Source: Nitrobacter vulgaris (GTDB lineage: Bacteria > Pseudomonadota > Alphaproteobacteria > Rhizobiales > Xanthobacteraceae). From it: DNA of 47,696 nucleotides. The notes beneath the pieces are model-generated. The model ran no database searches. It was not told the DNA's origin and saw only the letters and a list, made by a program, of their open reading frames with translations. Numbering within the stretch: the stretch's first letter is position 1; each line of letters starts with the position of its first letter. This document shows positions 8,217 through 47,696 of this stretch, one piece after another. The translations under genes were made by a program, and so were the position numbers. The stretch lies in assembly GCF_002028545.1 (NCBI RefSeq), contig NZ_MWPQ01000002.1:1-47696 (forward strand). The letters are read 5' to 3'.

Positions 8217-8451
8217 TTATGCAATCCTCCTGGCGGCTGAAACACCCGGCGGGCGCGCCAGCTACCTTCATCAGGTATTTAAGTCCCGATTCGTCGGGCG
8301 CATGAATTTGCAGCGATTCATCGTCCAAACAGAGTACTCCAGAACTGGGGAGAATTTGGATGAATGTTCCCTGTCATGACATACAGGATCGACGTCTCGG
8401 CTGAGAGAATGCGCGGGGCTTCCTCATTCCACACAAAGCTAAGACTTTTCA

Positions 8452-42940: not shown

Positions 42941-43849
42941 TCAGGCCGCGCGTTTGATGTCGTCGGCGAGCGCGCGATAGGACAGAGCTTCGGCAAGGTG
43001 CAGCCGGCCGATCTTGTCAGCGGCATCGAGGTCCGCGAGCGTGCGGGCGACGCGTAGTACCCGGTGATAGCCTCGCGCCGACAAACGCATGCTTTCCGCG
43101 GCGTCGCGGAGCAGCTTCAGCCCTTGTGCATCCGGTTGCGCGATGTCTTCCAGCGCGGCCGCCGGGGCTTCGGCGTTGGTCCGGACATTCGTAAGGCCGA
43201 GCGCAGCATAGCGCGCTGCCTGAATGTCCCGTGCCGTGGCAACACGAGCGCCGACTTCGGCTGAACCTTCCGACGAAGGCGGCAGAATGAGATCGGAGGC
43301 GGTCACAGCCGGCACTTCGATGCGCAGATCGATGCGGTCCAGGAGAGGTCCCGAGATGCGCATTTGATAGTCAGCGGTGCAGCGATCGATGCGGCCGCGC
43401 TTGCAGGCATAGCCAGGCTCAAAGGCATGGCCGCAGCGGCATGGATTCATCGCCGCCACCAGCATGAAACGCGCAGGATAGGTCACGCGATGATTGGCGC
43501 GGGACACCGCGATCTCGCCGTTCTCGAGCGGCTGCCGGAGCGAATCCAGCACGCGCGGATCGAACTCCGGCAACTCGTCGAGAAACAGGACGCCGTTATG
43601 CGCGAGCGAGATTTCACCAGGTTTGGCGCGCGTGCCGCCCCCCGTCAGCGCGGCCATGCTGGCGGAATGATGCGGGGCGCGAAACGGCCGGTGCGAGGTG
43701 AGCGCACCGCCGTCGATTGCGCCGGCAACCGACGCGATCATCGACACTTCCAGCAGCTCGGCCGGCGACAGCGGTGGGAGAATCGAAGGCAGGCGTGCCG
43801 CGAGCATTGATTTGCCGCTGCCGGGAGAGCCGACCATCAGGATATTATG
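42941..43849 (-). pseudogene. comM: ComM/YifB Mg-chelatase-like AAA+ protein, C-terminal part, disrupted by insertion
   Basis: The remaining frame gives the last ~300 of an expected ~510 residues. Recognisable sequence begins HNILMVGSPGSGKS (Walker A) and runs through LPSILPPLSPAELLEVS, HRPFRAPHHSASMAALTGGG, LFLDELPEF (Walker B), AMNPCRCGH (zinc-type), GPLLDRIDLRIEVP and the Mg-chelatase C-terminal domain to a normal end. Homology stops at the codon before HN, near 43849-43850. The frame continues only through unrelated sequence to a stop at 43934. The ATG at 43835-43837 has no ribosome binding site, so the fragment is probably not expressed. ComM is the hexameric helicase that drives branch migration during natural transformation. 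The 5' ~200 codons must lie beyond the inserted element. Confidence 0.88.
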
Positions 43850-43854
43850 AACAA

Positions 43855-43934
43855 TTAACCCGAGCCATTTTGGGGTAATGGGACCAATAGATCGAGGGAG
43901 GATACTTAACCTAAAATATCGGGGTACTGGCCCC
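43855..43934. repeat. Two imperfect direct repeats at the element end
   Basis: Copy A (43855-43885) is TTAACC, 11 bases, GGGGTAATGGGACC. Copy B (43906-43934) is TTAACC, 9 bases, GGGGTACTGGCCCC. Their starts are 51 bases apart, and copy B runs into the stop codon of the primase-helicase gene. Repeated short sites at an element end are what a transposase or recombinase would bind. Confidence 0.55.
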
Positions 43935-46882
43935 TATGCTGCCGCCACGATTTCAGCCTTGATGTCCTTGTTGCAGCGATACGCCGACGCCAATCGCGCC
44001 ATGAGTTCGAGTTTTGCCGGATCCAACGCGTAGTACCGGGTGGCCCGTTTCGCTCGCTTTTCTCGGGCGACGGGATTCACCTTAAGGCCCAGGGTCTTGA
44101 GGAGCCCATTCAGCTGCCGGACAGGATTGGAGCGCACGTCCCGACGAATGGGAACCCCAGTACGCTCGTGAATGAAATTACGATTCCGTTCACAGAGATC
44201 AGCGAACGCTGACAGCTGTTGAACGGTGATTCGGACGTCAGATCGAAATCCCGATTCGTCAGCGATGCCTGCTGCAACCGCGAGCACAGCCATGAGAATC
44301 GTCTTATCCCCGGAGAGGCGAGAAAGCTCATCGTCCAGGCTCACGAGAATCATCCGGACGGTTTTCAGAAGATCTTTCCAGCGGTTCTGAAGCTTAGACA
44401 ACGCTTCAACGCGCTCCAGCAGCCTGTTGTCGTGATTCAAGACCAAAATGTCGTAGGTCAGGTCGACCGAAAGAGCCCGCTGAAGAAAATTGCGCTCGTA
44501 GCGGAGGCGCTCCGCGGGAGACAACGTCTGATTTTCATGGAGAATGCAAAGATCCAAATATTCGTCGTCATCCACATCGTCAGCCTCAAGTAGCCCGCGA
44601 ACGTGATCGCTCCAAAGTCGCTTCTCGGCCTCAGACCGGTCCTTGTTGGGTAGTGACTGTTCGTCGTTCTTTTCGATCTCCCAACCTTGGGATCGTCTAA
44701 GATCGCAGAACAATTCAATGAGATTATTCTTTGATGCGCGCTGTGCTGCCACCACGTGCGTATAAATCAACAGCAGCGGGTCGGTGGGATTATATTTTGT
44801 CAAACCATCCGGGGCGTAGCCGGTGACCGCGCGAGGGACGACCCTTGCGCGCGCCAGATCGTCGCGAATCACGTCAAAATTGGACGCGTACTGAAACCGG
44901 GTGGGGCTGATCCATACTTTGACTTGCCCGGGATTTCGGACGCGCCACAACTGCTGGTCCATATCGGTGTGGGTGTTGACCTTGGGGTAAAAGAAACCAA
45001 ACACACGGTCGACCTTGCATAGACCGCTCTCCTCAAGGCCCTGTGGATCGGGAAACGTGATGTCAATACCGGTTCCGAGAGACGGGGAGCACATTAAGAC
45101 CTGAATCTTGAGAATCTCCTCACAGACATTTTGTACAAAATCGATTTCTGCAGGGTCCTGTGAATTGTCCGAGGTGATGACTTTCATCTTGAGGGATGAA
45201 CCACATTTTTCTCGCAGTATTTCCGCGAGCACTTTGATCTGCTTTTTTGAGTTTGAGGTCACAAAGCATCGCTCTCCACTCTGAATGCTGGAGATAAGCT
45301 CCTCCCTGAGCACCTTCTCACTGGCATAGAGTTGCAGCTTCCGTTCTGATTTCTGAGTAAGTGGCTTGTTCAAAATGATGCTGGTGTTGTCACGCCAGTC
45401 TTGTGGTCGAAGATACCCCAGCACGTGGGAGGTGAGCATACCTAAGTCGGCATCGAGCGCGACGACGGACTTTGCCCCTTGGATCTCGAAAGCCAGCGCG
45501 TCGTAGCATCGCTCCAAGCCACCTTTGGTTTTTGTGATCGTATCGCCCACCAAATGCGAAAACAGCTGCTCCGATTCGTCGATGATCACGAGTTCAAATG
45601 GCGGGTCTGTCCGAAAGAATGGTCGCTTACCCTGACATCGATAGACGTAGCTCTCGGTGAAATTCGGAAGGCTGTCGATGCAGACGGCCAGCCTGCTGGG
45701 GTTCTTCATGACATGTCCCAGATCAAGATAGTAAGCCAGGCCCAGACGACTTGCCGCTTCTCTGAGCAGCGCGCGTCGATGGCCGACTAATAGGATGGAT
45801 TTTGGAAAGCCATTCTTTCCAGCGTTCTTCTCGATTTCATGGATAAGCTGTTTCAGGGCAGTTGTTTTGCCGCTGCCCTTTGGGCTCTTAACCAGGGTTA
45901 TGCCCGGTTCAAATTTGAGGGCCGGCAGGAATCTCTCCTGAATCACGGTGCAGTGGGAATCTGGCGGGAAGAATTCCTCAAACAGGGTCTTGGGTTCCGA
46001 CGTGCGTTCCGGATTTTCAAGCCGCCGCTGAACCATCCGCTCGAATGCTCCAAAATCATACTGATCGGGCTCAAGCTCCCAGTAGGTCAGCCCGCATGCA
46101 CGGCAGTGAATTCCCAAGCCGCCCCGAGTCCACGAAGGGACGACGAAAGCGCTTGCATGGCGATCATCGTGATGCGGACAATGGACGCTCGTCCCGGGCT
46201 CAAGGTCACCGAGAAATGCCGTATCGCCGCTGGCAAGCATGAGCGGCGTTTCGCTCTTGACTCTCTTGGACGAGTTGATCGCCAGCTTGCTTTTTTGGAC
46301 GCTTCGGAGCTCCCTGCCGTTCTCGATGAGATCATCGAGAACCTCACGAGGCATCACGTTGTCATAGCTCCACGTTGACGCTTTGCTGGAGCCGAAGAAG
46401 CATCGCGCCTTATCGCTGATCGACAGGTCTGCACCTAGTCGAAATGCGAGGGCTAGATTGGCATCGGCCCAATCCTGTGCTGCTAAGATGGATCGTTCCA
46501 ACGCAAAGACAACCCGCAGGCGATGCTCCGCGTCGGTGTGCGACGCTGTTGTGTAGATGAACGCCGCATTTCCGTTTATGAACGCATTATCTCGGGCTTC
46601 ATTGATCCTCAAAGTCCCGTCTAAATCCGCGGCGAGAAAGCCAGCGGCGAGAAACTTTTTTCCCTTTCGCTGCCCATCTTTGAATTGCGGTGCAAATGCG
46701 TGGCCGTCGGTGACATGCTGGATAAGTTCGGCGACATTGAGCTCCTTTGAATCCCAGCCACTTGCGCTGTGCGCTTTCATGACGCCTTGATCAGGCTTAT
46801 CGATCAGCGCGGTATTGATGCTGAGGCTCATCCGTGGAATGACGGGCGTGGTTTTAGCCTTGATATCTTTTCGTTGTGACAT
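43934..46882 (-). CDS. Replicative primase-helicase-like protein (CyRepA1/herpes origin-binding-type)
   Basis: A 982-residue multidomain protein. Residues 78-165 look like an archaeo-eukaryotic primase core: FLAADLDG (metal-binding D-x-D, 84-89), TTASH (111-115), HRLRVVF (120-126) and SDKARCFFG (156-164). A CHC2-like zinc motif follows: C235-P-H-H, then C260-x-x-C263. The helicase part has Walker A SPKGSGKTT (333-341), LLVGHRRALLREAASRL, Walker B VIIDESE (432-438), SPSLGTGIDI and an arginine-finger-type QQLWRVRNPGQ. This order matches large replication proteins of plasmids and integrated elements. I infer it initiates or primes replication of the element. The C-terminal 300 residues are unassigned. 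The start has GAGGGA seven bases upstream, next to a strong hairpin. Confidence 0.72.
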   Translation of the reverse strand: MSQRKDIKAKTTPVIPRMSLSINTALIDKPDQGVMKAHSASGWDSKELNVAELIQHVTDGHAFAPQFKDGQRKGKKFLAAGFLAADLDGTLRINEARDNAFINGNAAFIYTTASHTDAEHRLRVVFALERSILAAQDWADANLALAFRLGADLSISDKARCFFGSSKASTWSYDNVMPREVLDDLIENGRELRSVQKSKLAINSSKRVKSETPLMLASGDTAFLGDLEPGTSVHCPHHDDRHASAFVVPSWTRGGLGIHCRACGLTYWELEPDQYDFGAFERMVQRRLENPERTSEPKTLFEEFFPPDSHCTVIQERFLPALKFEPGITLVKSPKGSGKTTALKQLIHEIEKNAGKNGFPKSILLVGHRRALLREAASRLGLAYYLDLGHVMKNPSRLAVCIDSLPNFTESYVYRCQGKRPFFRTDPPFELVIIDESEQLFSHLVGDTITKTKGGLERCYDALAFEIQGAKSVVALDADLGMLTSHVLGYLRPQDWRDNTSIILNKPLTQKSERKLQLYASEKVLREELISSIQSGERCFVTSNSKKQIKVLAEILREKCGSSLKMKVITSDNSQDPAEIDFVQNVCEEILKIQVLMCSPSLGTGIDITFPDPQGLEESGLCKVDRVFGFFYPKVNTHTDMDQQLWRVRNPGQVKVWISPTRFQYASNFDVIRDDLARARVVPRAVTGYAPDGLTKYNPTDPLLLIYTHVVAAQRASKNNLIELFCDLRRSQGWEIEKNDEQSLPNKDRSEAEKRLWSDHVRGLLEADDVDDDEYLDLCILHENQTLSPAERLRYERNFLQRALSVDLTYDILVLNHDNRLLERVEALSKLQNRWKDLLKTVRMILVSLDDELSRLSGDKTILMAVLAVAAGIADESGFRSDVRITVQQLSAFADLCERNRNFIHERTGVPIRRDVRSNPVRQLNGLLKTLGLKVNPVAREKRAKRATRYYALDPAKLELMARLASAYRCNKDIKAEIVAAA

Positions 46883-46948: not shown

Positions 46949-47575
46949 TTAGGGTTGCAGCCGAGTGGAGCTACAGGGGTTCTTTGCCATTCGCCAACCG
47001 GTCTTGTCTCCAAACGGCTGATGAAACTCGCCTGGCTGAACGATCGACTTGAAGTGTGGCAAAGTGTGCACGAATGTCGCTAACGCGAGGGCAATCATAT
47101 CCCAGTCTGCTGGTCCGGGGCAGCTGTTCACGGCTGCTGTGATCGCGCAATAGAACGCCTTTTCAATATCGGAATCTGCTTCCGTGAGGTGGAGGCAATG
47201 CTGGACTAACGCTGATTCGATTTCAAAACCCGCGCTTTCAACGATCGCGCGGCCTGCGTGAATGAAATCAAGACCCGGCGGTCGCAGTTCATAAAGTCTA
47301 TCACGCATGTATTCGCGATTGACTCGAACGAACTCTGAGTAATCTTCCTTTGTGCGTTCGAGATTGATGGCTTCGAGCCAATTGCATCGACGATTATAAT
47401 CTTCAGGATCAATGGATCGCATCATCCGGACGACTACCACACCCGTGTCCTGTTCTGACTCTTGCTCTTGAGAACCATCCCCCCAGCTGGCTTGAGCCCT
47501 GAACGCGTCGGTTAGGTCGAACCGCTTCGGAGGCTCTCCCTTTGGAATCGTTCGTCTAATGCCGTTTTGTGTCAT
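46949..47575 (-). CDS. Unrecognised protein, 5' end occupied by an IS21-family element
   Basis: I do not recognise this protein. From the ATG at 47573-47575 it has 208 residues. The sequence starts MTQNGIRRTIPKGEPPKRFD, continues with an acidic Glu/Gln-rich patch (about 42-50), and has helical segments such as YNRRCNWLEAINLERTKEDY and ALALATFVHTLPHF. No transmembrane segment or known motif is visible. The frame is also open further up to 47665, but that part is read from insertion-sequence DNA. The ATG itself lies inside the IS end, so the original start may be lost and the protein may be truncated or altered at its N-terminus. It is 66 bases ahead of the primase-helicase gene on the same strand and probably cotranscribed. 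Confidence 0.5.
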   Translation of the reverse strand: MTQNGIRRTIPKGEPPKRFDLTDAFRAQASWGDGSQEQESEQDTGVVVVRMMRSIDPEDYNRRCNWLEAINLERTKEDYSEFVRVNREYMRDRLYELRPPGLDFIHAGRAIVESAGFEIESALVQHCLHLTEADSDIEKAFYCAITAAVNSCPGPADWDMIALALATFVHTLPHFKSIVQPGEFHQPFGDKTGWRMAKNPCSSTRLQP

Positions 47576-47696
47576 TCGGCATGCAAAATTGACCCCGTAA
47601 GCCGGGGGATCGGCGTCCAAAATTGACCCCCTACAGGTTGGCTGTTGCGCTGCCTGCTTTGTCATGAAGCAGGTGGTCGGGGATGCTGATCGTGGA
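47570..47696 (+). mobile_element. IS21-family insertion sequence, left end (cut by window edge)
   Basis: It begins TGTCATTCGGCATGCAAAAT, the TG-type terminus of IS21 elements. Two copies of CAAAATTGACCCC (47583-47595 and about 47619-47631) match the repeated terminal transposase-binding sites of the family. About 110 bases after the end comes the istA start. It is inserted at the 5' end of the unrecognised minus-strand gene. Confidence 0.75.
47683..47696 (+). CDS. istA: IS21-family transposase IstA, first codons only
   Basis: ATG CTG ATC GTG GA gives MLIV-, the usual start of IstA in this family (M-L-I-V-E). GGTGG and CGGGG lie directly upstream. The window ends here. The call rests on the peptide start plus the preceding IS21-type repeats. 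Confidence 0.6.

Follow-up and report, generated by a model that had tools for sequence, protein, structure and literature searches.

Mobile elements often break competence genes, and the locus described here raises the question of whether the element benefits from doing so or has simply found a convenient site. The window (the whole stretch of 47,696 bases that was analysed, from Nitrobacter vulgaris) is the entire contig C19 of a host genome, G000, of 3.9 Mb in 95 contigs, and in it the competence gene comM is cut short by an abrupt switch to foreign DNA. We find that the split comM is explained, with a probability of roughly 0.9, by the integration of an element encoding a large serine recombinase (LSR) through a CT crossover dinucleotide within the gene.

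The 3' part of comM lies on the minus strand at 42941..43840, running from codon L224, the first two bases of which are the CT core, to the stop codon, and encodes the Walker A motif with the Mg_chelatase (Pfam PF01078, 3.2e-82) and Mg_chelatase_C (PF13335, 6.5e-29) domains. It shows 90-96% amino acid identity to the comM products of 8 congeners. The 5' part, encoding the ChlI domain (PF13541), was found on contig C3, where it directly meets foreign DNA with the core at C3:10846-10847, and the domains on the two pieces identify the target as a ComM family gene. All 8 of the congeners searched have an uninterrupted comM, as one open frame of 516-523 codons. The truncation proposed in a preliminary description of the window, made from its letters alone, was thus borne out by the domains, the congener alignment and the 5' part on C3; the missing half was to be sought past the right edge, and it does exist, but on another contig, the window being the whole of C19. 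That description had also allowed for a replicon with no 5' half and for relatives truncated without any element, and the piece on C3 and the whole genes of the congeners dispose of both. A misassembly or a simple deletion of comM is the least credible of the accounts considered here: the genome is fragmented and the contig that forms the window stops in a repeat, but the junctions are internal to C19 and C3 with attachment arms on both sides, and the same arrangement is seen in the single-contig genomes G059, G240, G215, G418, G326, G336 and G259.

Alignment with the closest congener, a comparison that the preliminary description had called for, places the break to the base: it falls at CT in the second Leu codon of GGHHL-L-MVGSPGSGKS, residue 224 of a 522-codon frame, just before Walker A, and genuine comM sequence starts at this core (43840/43839). 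The H-N-I codons standing before LMVGSPGSGKS in the window (43849-43841) are the element's attachment arm and resemble comM by accident (the closest congener reads GGA-CAT-CAT-CTG-CTG-ATG here), so that the break first proposed was rightly put near Walker A, with its exact position three codons further in. When the insert was removed in silico, a 512-aa comM without stops was restored in frame. The dN/dS of this rejoined gene (0.015-0.076 against 7 congeners) is like that of a congener (L006, 0.021-0.069 against six others), which indicates an insertion that is young or reversible, and the G+C content of the element is 0.535 and 0.559 in its two portions, with 0.606 for the host portion of the window. 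Excision restores the interrupted gene in skin elements and comK prophages, and an element that excised under some condition would restore comM in the same manner; neither half of comM shows decay and together they restore a full frame, as such regulated gene integrity would have it, but a recent insertion accounts equally well for the absence of decay, no excision factor was identified and an insertion sequence (IS) lies within the element, and we regard this explanation as unlikely.

The crossover dinucleotide, CT on the comM strand (43839..43840, minus), is common to attL, attR and the empty site when the junctions are aligned, and is an att core of the kind for which the preliminary description had suggested comparing the two junctions. 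Within comM, attB reads GGACATCATCTG-CT-GATGGTCGGC; after insertion attL is GGCGGACATCATCTG-CT-GATAATGTGTACAATTAACC and attR is GGTTAATTGTTCATAATATC-CT-GATGGTCGGC, the element-derived half of attP in attR being GGTTAATTGTTCATAATATC on the comM strand (43841..43860, minus). The deduced 42-bp attP is a near-palindrome centred on CT, in which this arm and the element arm at attL on C3 agree at 17/20 palindromic positions. A near-palindromic att site around a short core is the form expected of a serine integrase, and short attB and attP sites with a central crossover dinucleotide are both recognisable here in silico. The same form recurs in all the 18 elements with both junctions read, where arm palindromy averaged 13.2 of 20 positions, compared with 8.3 for 306 mismatched pairings (0/20,000 permutations as good), and where the core was the best palindrome centre among 13 offsets in 18/18. 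Fourteen of these elements have CT at both ends, two have TT at both ends and two are mixed, with one CT end and one TT end. The core of a serine integrase sets orientation when the att sites are near-symmetrical, and since attP is nearly symmetrical here, the core is predicted to set the orientation of the element in comM.

Beside attL, the first gene inside the C3 junction encodes a 581-aa LSR with Resolvase (PF00239, 8.8e-16), Recombinase (PF07508, 7.5e-13) and Zn_ribbon (PF13408, 1.8e-9) domains, which matches the integrase family PHROG 95 (2.3e-72) and is 33.7% identical to its top-ranked phage record. Residues S12 and R10 are invariant in 18/18 aligned LSRs, the conserved catalytic serine acting as the nucleophile in such enzymes. 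In the proposed mechanism, the starting molecule would be a circular form of an element of ~14.5 kb, plus the IS, encoding this LSR; a single recombination between its palindromic attP and the attB inside comM, with the shared CT as crossover, would leave two comM fragments flanking the element. The 581-aa integrase probably catalysed the insertion, and C19 and C3 probably carry the ends of one and the same element. ComM is presumably inactive and transformation lowered, and the element may still be able to excise.

The preliminary description had drawn a parallel with the AbaR islands of Acinetobacter, for which comM is a target in the part of the literature consulted (PMC11472951). The parallel holds for the gene that is hit and fails for the mechanism, which is Tn7-like there and appears here to be that of a large serine integrase with a 2-bp crossover. 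A Tn7-like transposition into comM would have the 5 bp common to both junctions, CTGAT, as a target-site duplication, but other elements share other or shorter stretches that are constant solely at the CT/TT position, and attP is palindromic about CT. The genes at the element ends are those of the LSR and a replication protein, with no tni transposition genes at these ends (the middle of the element is unassembled), and such a transposition is very improbable. What does stand from the earlier proposal is that an element bringing its own replication-type protein inserted site-specifically into comM.

Related LSRs (called at E <= 1e-30) were found in 21 of the 397 genomes of the order that were searched, and comM is split at this codon in 18 of the 21, G000 included; G014, from the search for relatives, is a nineteenth such genome. 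The same integrase family therefore occupies this codon in 18 genomes besides G000 (17 read at both junctions, G275 at one), which excludes a chance break. In the remaining three LSR-bearing genomes, comM is whole (G043 and G233) or lies in pieces, 10-121 and 60-521, that do not fit an insertion at this site (G360). Other candidates were likewise set aside, G028 and G032 as their matches overlap or break elsewhere and G009 for a gap at 153-218, and G023, where the contig starts at residue 223 and only one end can be read, was not accepted as a confirmed insertion.

Where both comM pieces lie on one contig, the elements span ~3.6-34.4 kb. Scanning 19 larger proteins of eight other elements against Pfam, and nine cargo proteins together with the window's replication protein against PADLOC, revealed Thoeris ThsA (G336), an AIPR/AbiU protein (G059), a UvrD helicase with a nuclease domain (G418), proteases and HipA (G240) and a MobA/MobL relaxase (G259), and several of the proteins gave no match. 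A further serine recombinase, bearing an HNH repeat domain, is also encoded in the G240 element (L108:9173-10900).

As assembled, the Nitrobacter element runs from 43841 to ~47589 of the window and from ~111 to 10845 of C3, with IS sequence at the ends of both contigs. In the window it encodes a 982-aa helicase/primase-like replication protein (43934..46882, minus; PHROG 4913 'replication', 2.8e-45), plasmid relatives of which are annotated as CyRepA1-family plasmid replication proteins, and an open reading frame (ORF) of unassigned function (46949..47665, minus; without a match in Pfam at E 1 or in PHROG at E 0.01), the upstream end of which runs into the IS. The contig breaks in the end of this multi-copy IS (47590..47696, plus; 127-128-bp copies on 6 further contigs). 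Besides the LSR, the C3 part encodes an XRE regulator, a DUF6641 protein and an SNase-like protein. In G240, which is of the same family, the comM element has the replication protein (43.5% over 974 aligned residues), XRE and DUF6641 in common with this one and is oriented the other way in comM; the Afipia locus L124 shares XRE and DUF6641. Neither head, tail or packaging genes nor a relaxase were present among the ORFs scanned from the assembled parts of the window's own element. Inspection by eye suggests that a stretch of ~50 bases recurs within the left part of this comM element (L035:6478-6530 and 8357-8410).

Several observations weigh against integration of a single element through a fixed CT crossover. 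The core differs by one base between the two ends, CT and TT, in 2 of the 18 elements read at both, and among 35 further junctions at the same site read at one end, 32 have CT or TT, two AT and one TG. The middle of the element is unassembled, and the evidence that a single IS copy links C19 to C3 consists of similar end motifs and of AAT, a possible 3-bp duplication common to the IS flank in C19 and the start of C3. The two types of IS end occur in different contig sets, the C19 end on 7 contigs and the full C3 end on C3, C14 and C33, with partial likenesses to the latter on other contigs besides. The IS may, in addition, have harmed the mobility of the element.

To see where relatives of this LSR insert, the best 80 of 471 relatives from a scan of named genomes were joined with 21 order-level loci and L097, and the resulting 102 rows were reduced to 96 by removing four duplicates (L051, L142, L163, L181) and two short or doubtful rows (L064, L196). 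Two sites in comM are used: site 1 is the break at residue 224 and site 2 is at residue 42, in GLPAF-S-IVGLPD. Site 1 accounts for 52 rows and site 2 for 21, a comM share that is biased upward because the rows were gathered by similarity to comM-targeting LSRs; comEC accounts for 10 and comF for 1. Altogether 84/96 relatives are in comM, comEC or comF, two are in other identified genes, namely a portal gene (L056 of G043, where the LSR adjoins an HK97-type phage portal gene) and a glycosyltransferase gene (L198), and 10 have no assigned target. Six of these ten (L065, L145, L156, L191, L197, L199) have comM and comEC both whole, so their targets are probably outside those two genes, and four (L066, L136, L165, L202) are unlabelled.

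With comM whole, the LSR adjoins comEC, broken in its HLMSISGLH region, in L171, L179, L180, L186, L189, L190, L192 and L151, and adjoins comF in L173. For L151 (no family match in the stretch scanned) and L192 (DUF4131 alone), the assignment also draws on their genomes, in which comEC is split or cut at this point. In L150 the LSR lies between the pieces of a split comEC on one contig, and L148, where comEC is split elsewhere in the genome, takes its label solely from that split. In the genome of L127, a site 2 row, the other comM piece starts at residue 294 and not at 42. An N-terminal piece of comM adjoins the LSR at site 2 in L152 (Ferirhizobium litorale) and G459, with pieces 143-230 and 221-516 on separate contigs, so that one genome may have insertions at both comM sites. 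Contig C36 of G442, a Verrucomicrobia genome, carries three extra C-terminal comM-like fragments (residues ~344-515) ~28-57 kb apart. Of 211 LSR relatives on viral contigs 80 were retained, and one of these (L303) lies within 3 kb of a comM piece that stops at residue 224; the 80 gave no match to the comEC and comF queries.

Sites 1 and 2 are interleaved on a quick tree of the 96 rows, with 11 site changes, of which 8 are forced by well-supported branches. Omission of the long-branched L061 and L062 and of the weak labels (L129, L164, L169, L194 and L203, the last later placed on a single contig between the two pieces of its comM) left 8 changes, 5 of them forced, and a careful 36-row tree gave 7 (bootstrap range 6-7), at least 5 forced. 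Site labels were more clustered on the tree than in shuffles. The closest pair at different sites, L137 (site 1) and L139 (site 2), is 87% identical, and a domain swap was rejected as the cause of their switch, as the differences are spread along the protein. Host-driven site choice was rejected also, both sites occurring inside single families: within the Nitrobacteraceae, Afipia and one Rhodoplanes have site 1 and two Bradyrhizobium and another Rhodoplanes site 2, and the Brucellaceae have both.

These changes of address can be read in two ways. It is possible, at a little short of even odds, that one serine-integrase lineage tracks the DNA-uptake pathway and not a fixed DNA address, moving between two comM sites and on to comEC and comF and so disabling transformation; if so, selection would act on competence loss and retargeting would run along a half-site, AT-N4-GGC-Y, that the sites have in common. 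Changes of target gene on the tree number 5, and when the six relatives with comM and comEC whole are counted as non-competence they rise to 10, with 7 between competence and non-competence, which weakens the case for pathway tracking and strengthens that for a safe harbour. This main rival holds that comM, comEC and comF, which are widely conserved and dispensable, are used only for these properties and for the shared half-site, and not because the element gains from transformation loss, and we are just as hesitant to accept it, placing it somewhat below an even chance. Ranked against the site-1 motif among the ~3070 positions of comM, site 2 came first in 16/31 species and second in 6 (worst rank 49), with the resemblance mainly in the right half-site; the att region of comEC has a similar pattern by eye, and the lineage does leave these genes, as the six relatives testify. 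The shared half-site offers a possible route for retargeting between the comM sites. Yet matches to the site-1 motif as good as site 2 occur at 31 and 81 of 2,042,125 non-comM positions, equivalent to an expected ~120-310 per 3.9-Mb genome, so that likeness alone leaves the retention of comM unexplained, and either selection for competence loss or a safe-harbour filter is needed. Against the safe harbour stand the 8-11 moves between the two comM sites in spite of so many equal positions, and the 84/86 identified targets in comM, comEC or comF.

The window's own genome fits the tracking of the pathway, in that its comEC is split too, in the SISG-YHMA motif, between C34:13978-14889 and C1 ~314526-315923 (L234, L235). 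The junctions carry a 21-bp near-repeat, ATTTCCGGCTA-n-CATAT-n-GCC, with two differences, and the inserted element encodes a 411-aa tyrosine integrase beside one junction and an AAA_25 protein. Over this stretch comEC is unbroken in 29/29 other genomes compared, including the 8 congeners and 18 comM-split genomes. With an LSR at comM and a tyrosine integrase at comEC, a single strain has had two genes of the transformation pathway broken by unrelated integrases. The SNase-like proteins of the two elements are 84% identical (L234:2833-3585, L035:1864-2631), which suggests, from this likeness, gene exchange between them.

The window locus belongs to an already known kind and its mechanism is clear in outline. 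In the passages of Durrant et al. 2022 (PMC10083194) drawn on here, a 'magnesium chelatase/ATP-dependent protease', taken to be the comM/YifB family gene, is the target of 12.4% of predicted site-specific LSRs, an insertion like that of the window's element, and DNA competence genes are reported as enriched. In the Wolbachia phage WO, according to the relevant part of PMC9203015, an LSR prophage (sr1WO) splits the magnesium chelatase gene; this too is an alphaproteobacterial case in the same gene, and WO is a phage with structural genes. LSR insertion into a comM-type gene has, as these sources indicate, already been published (Durrant 2022; phage WO). The two sites in the gene, the switching on the tree and comEC and comF by name were seen in our analysis and not in those passages of Durrant et al., and we found no description in listings of the open-licence literature of two-site switching within comM with reach to comEC and comF. 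For Acinetobacter, the portion of PMC11472951 used here describes how mobile elements cost the cell its comM and what this does to transformation, with the AbaR/AbGRI islands in the same gene being Tn7-like, in contrast to the serine integrase with a 2-bp core found here. Pneumococcal prophages in comYC, ssbB and other genes provide, in the sections of PMC12637031 consulted, integrases at competence genes that are argued to counter chromosomal curing; a tree there fitted an independent integrase origin per competence site with later spread to other sites, whereas here one lineage switches among competence-gene sites and also leaves them.

The element probably has this address because comM is a conserved gene that the host can spare and because its loss would shield the element from replacement by transformation; selection against transformation fits the pattern but is unproven. 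A lineage that changes its DNA address but mostly keeps to three competence genes is a natural experiment in which site and gene are uncoupled, and the matched pairs of attB and attP that it offers, covering two addresses within a single gene and including a pair of 87%-identical enzymes at different sites, are useful for the study of how LSR specificity evolves. With many of its relatives in DNA-uptake genes, blocking uptake may suit such elements.

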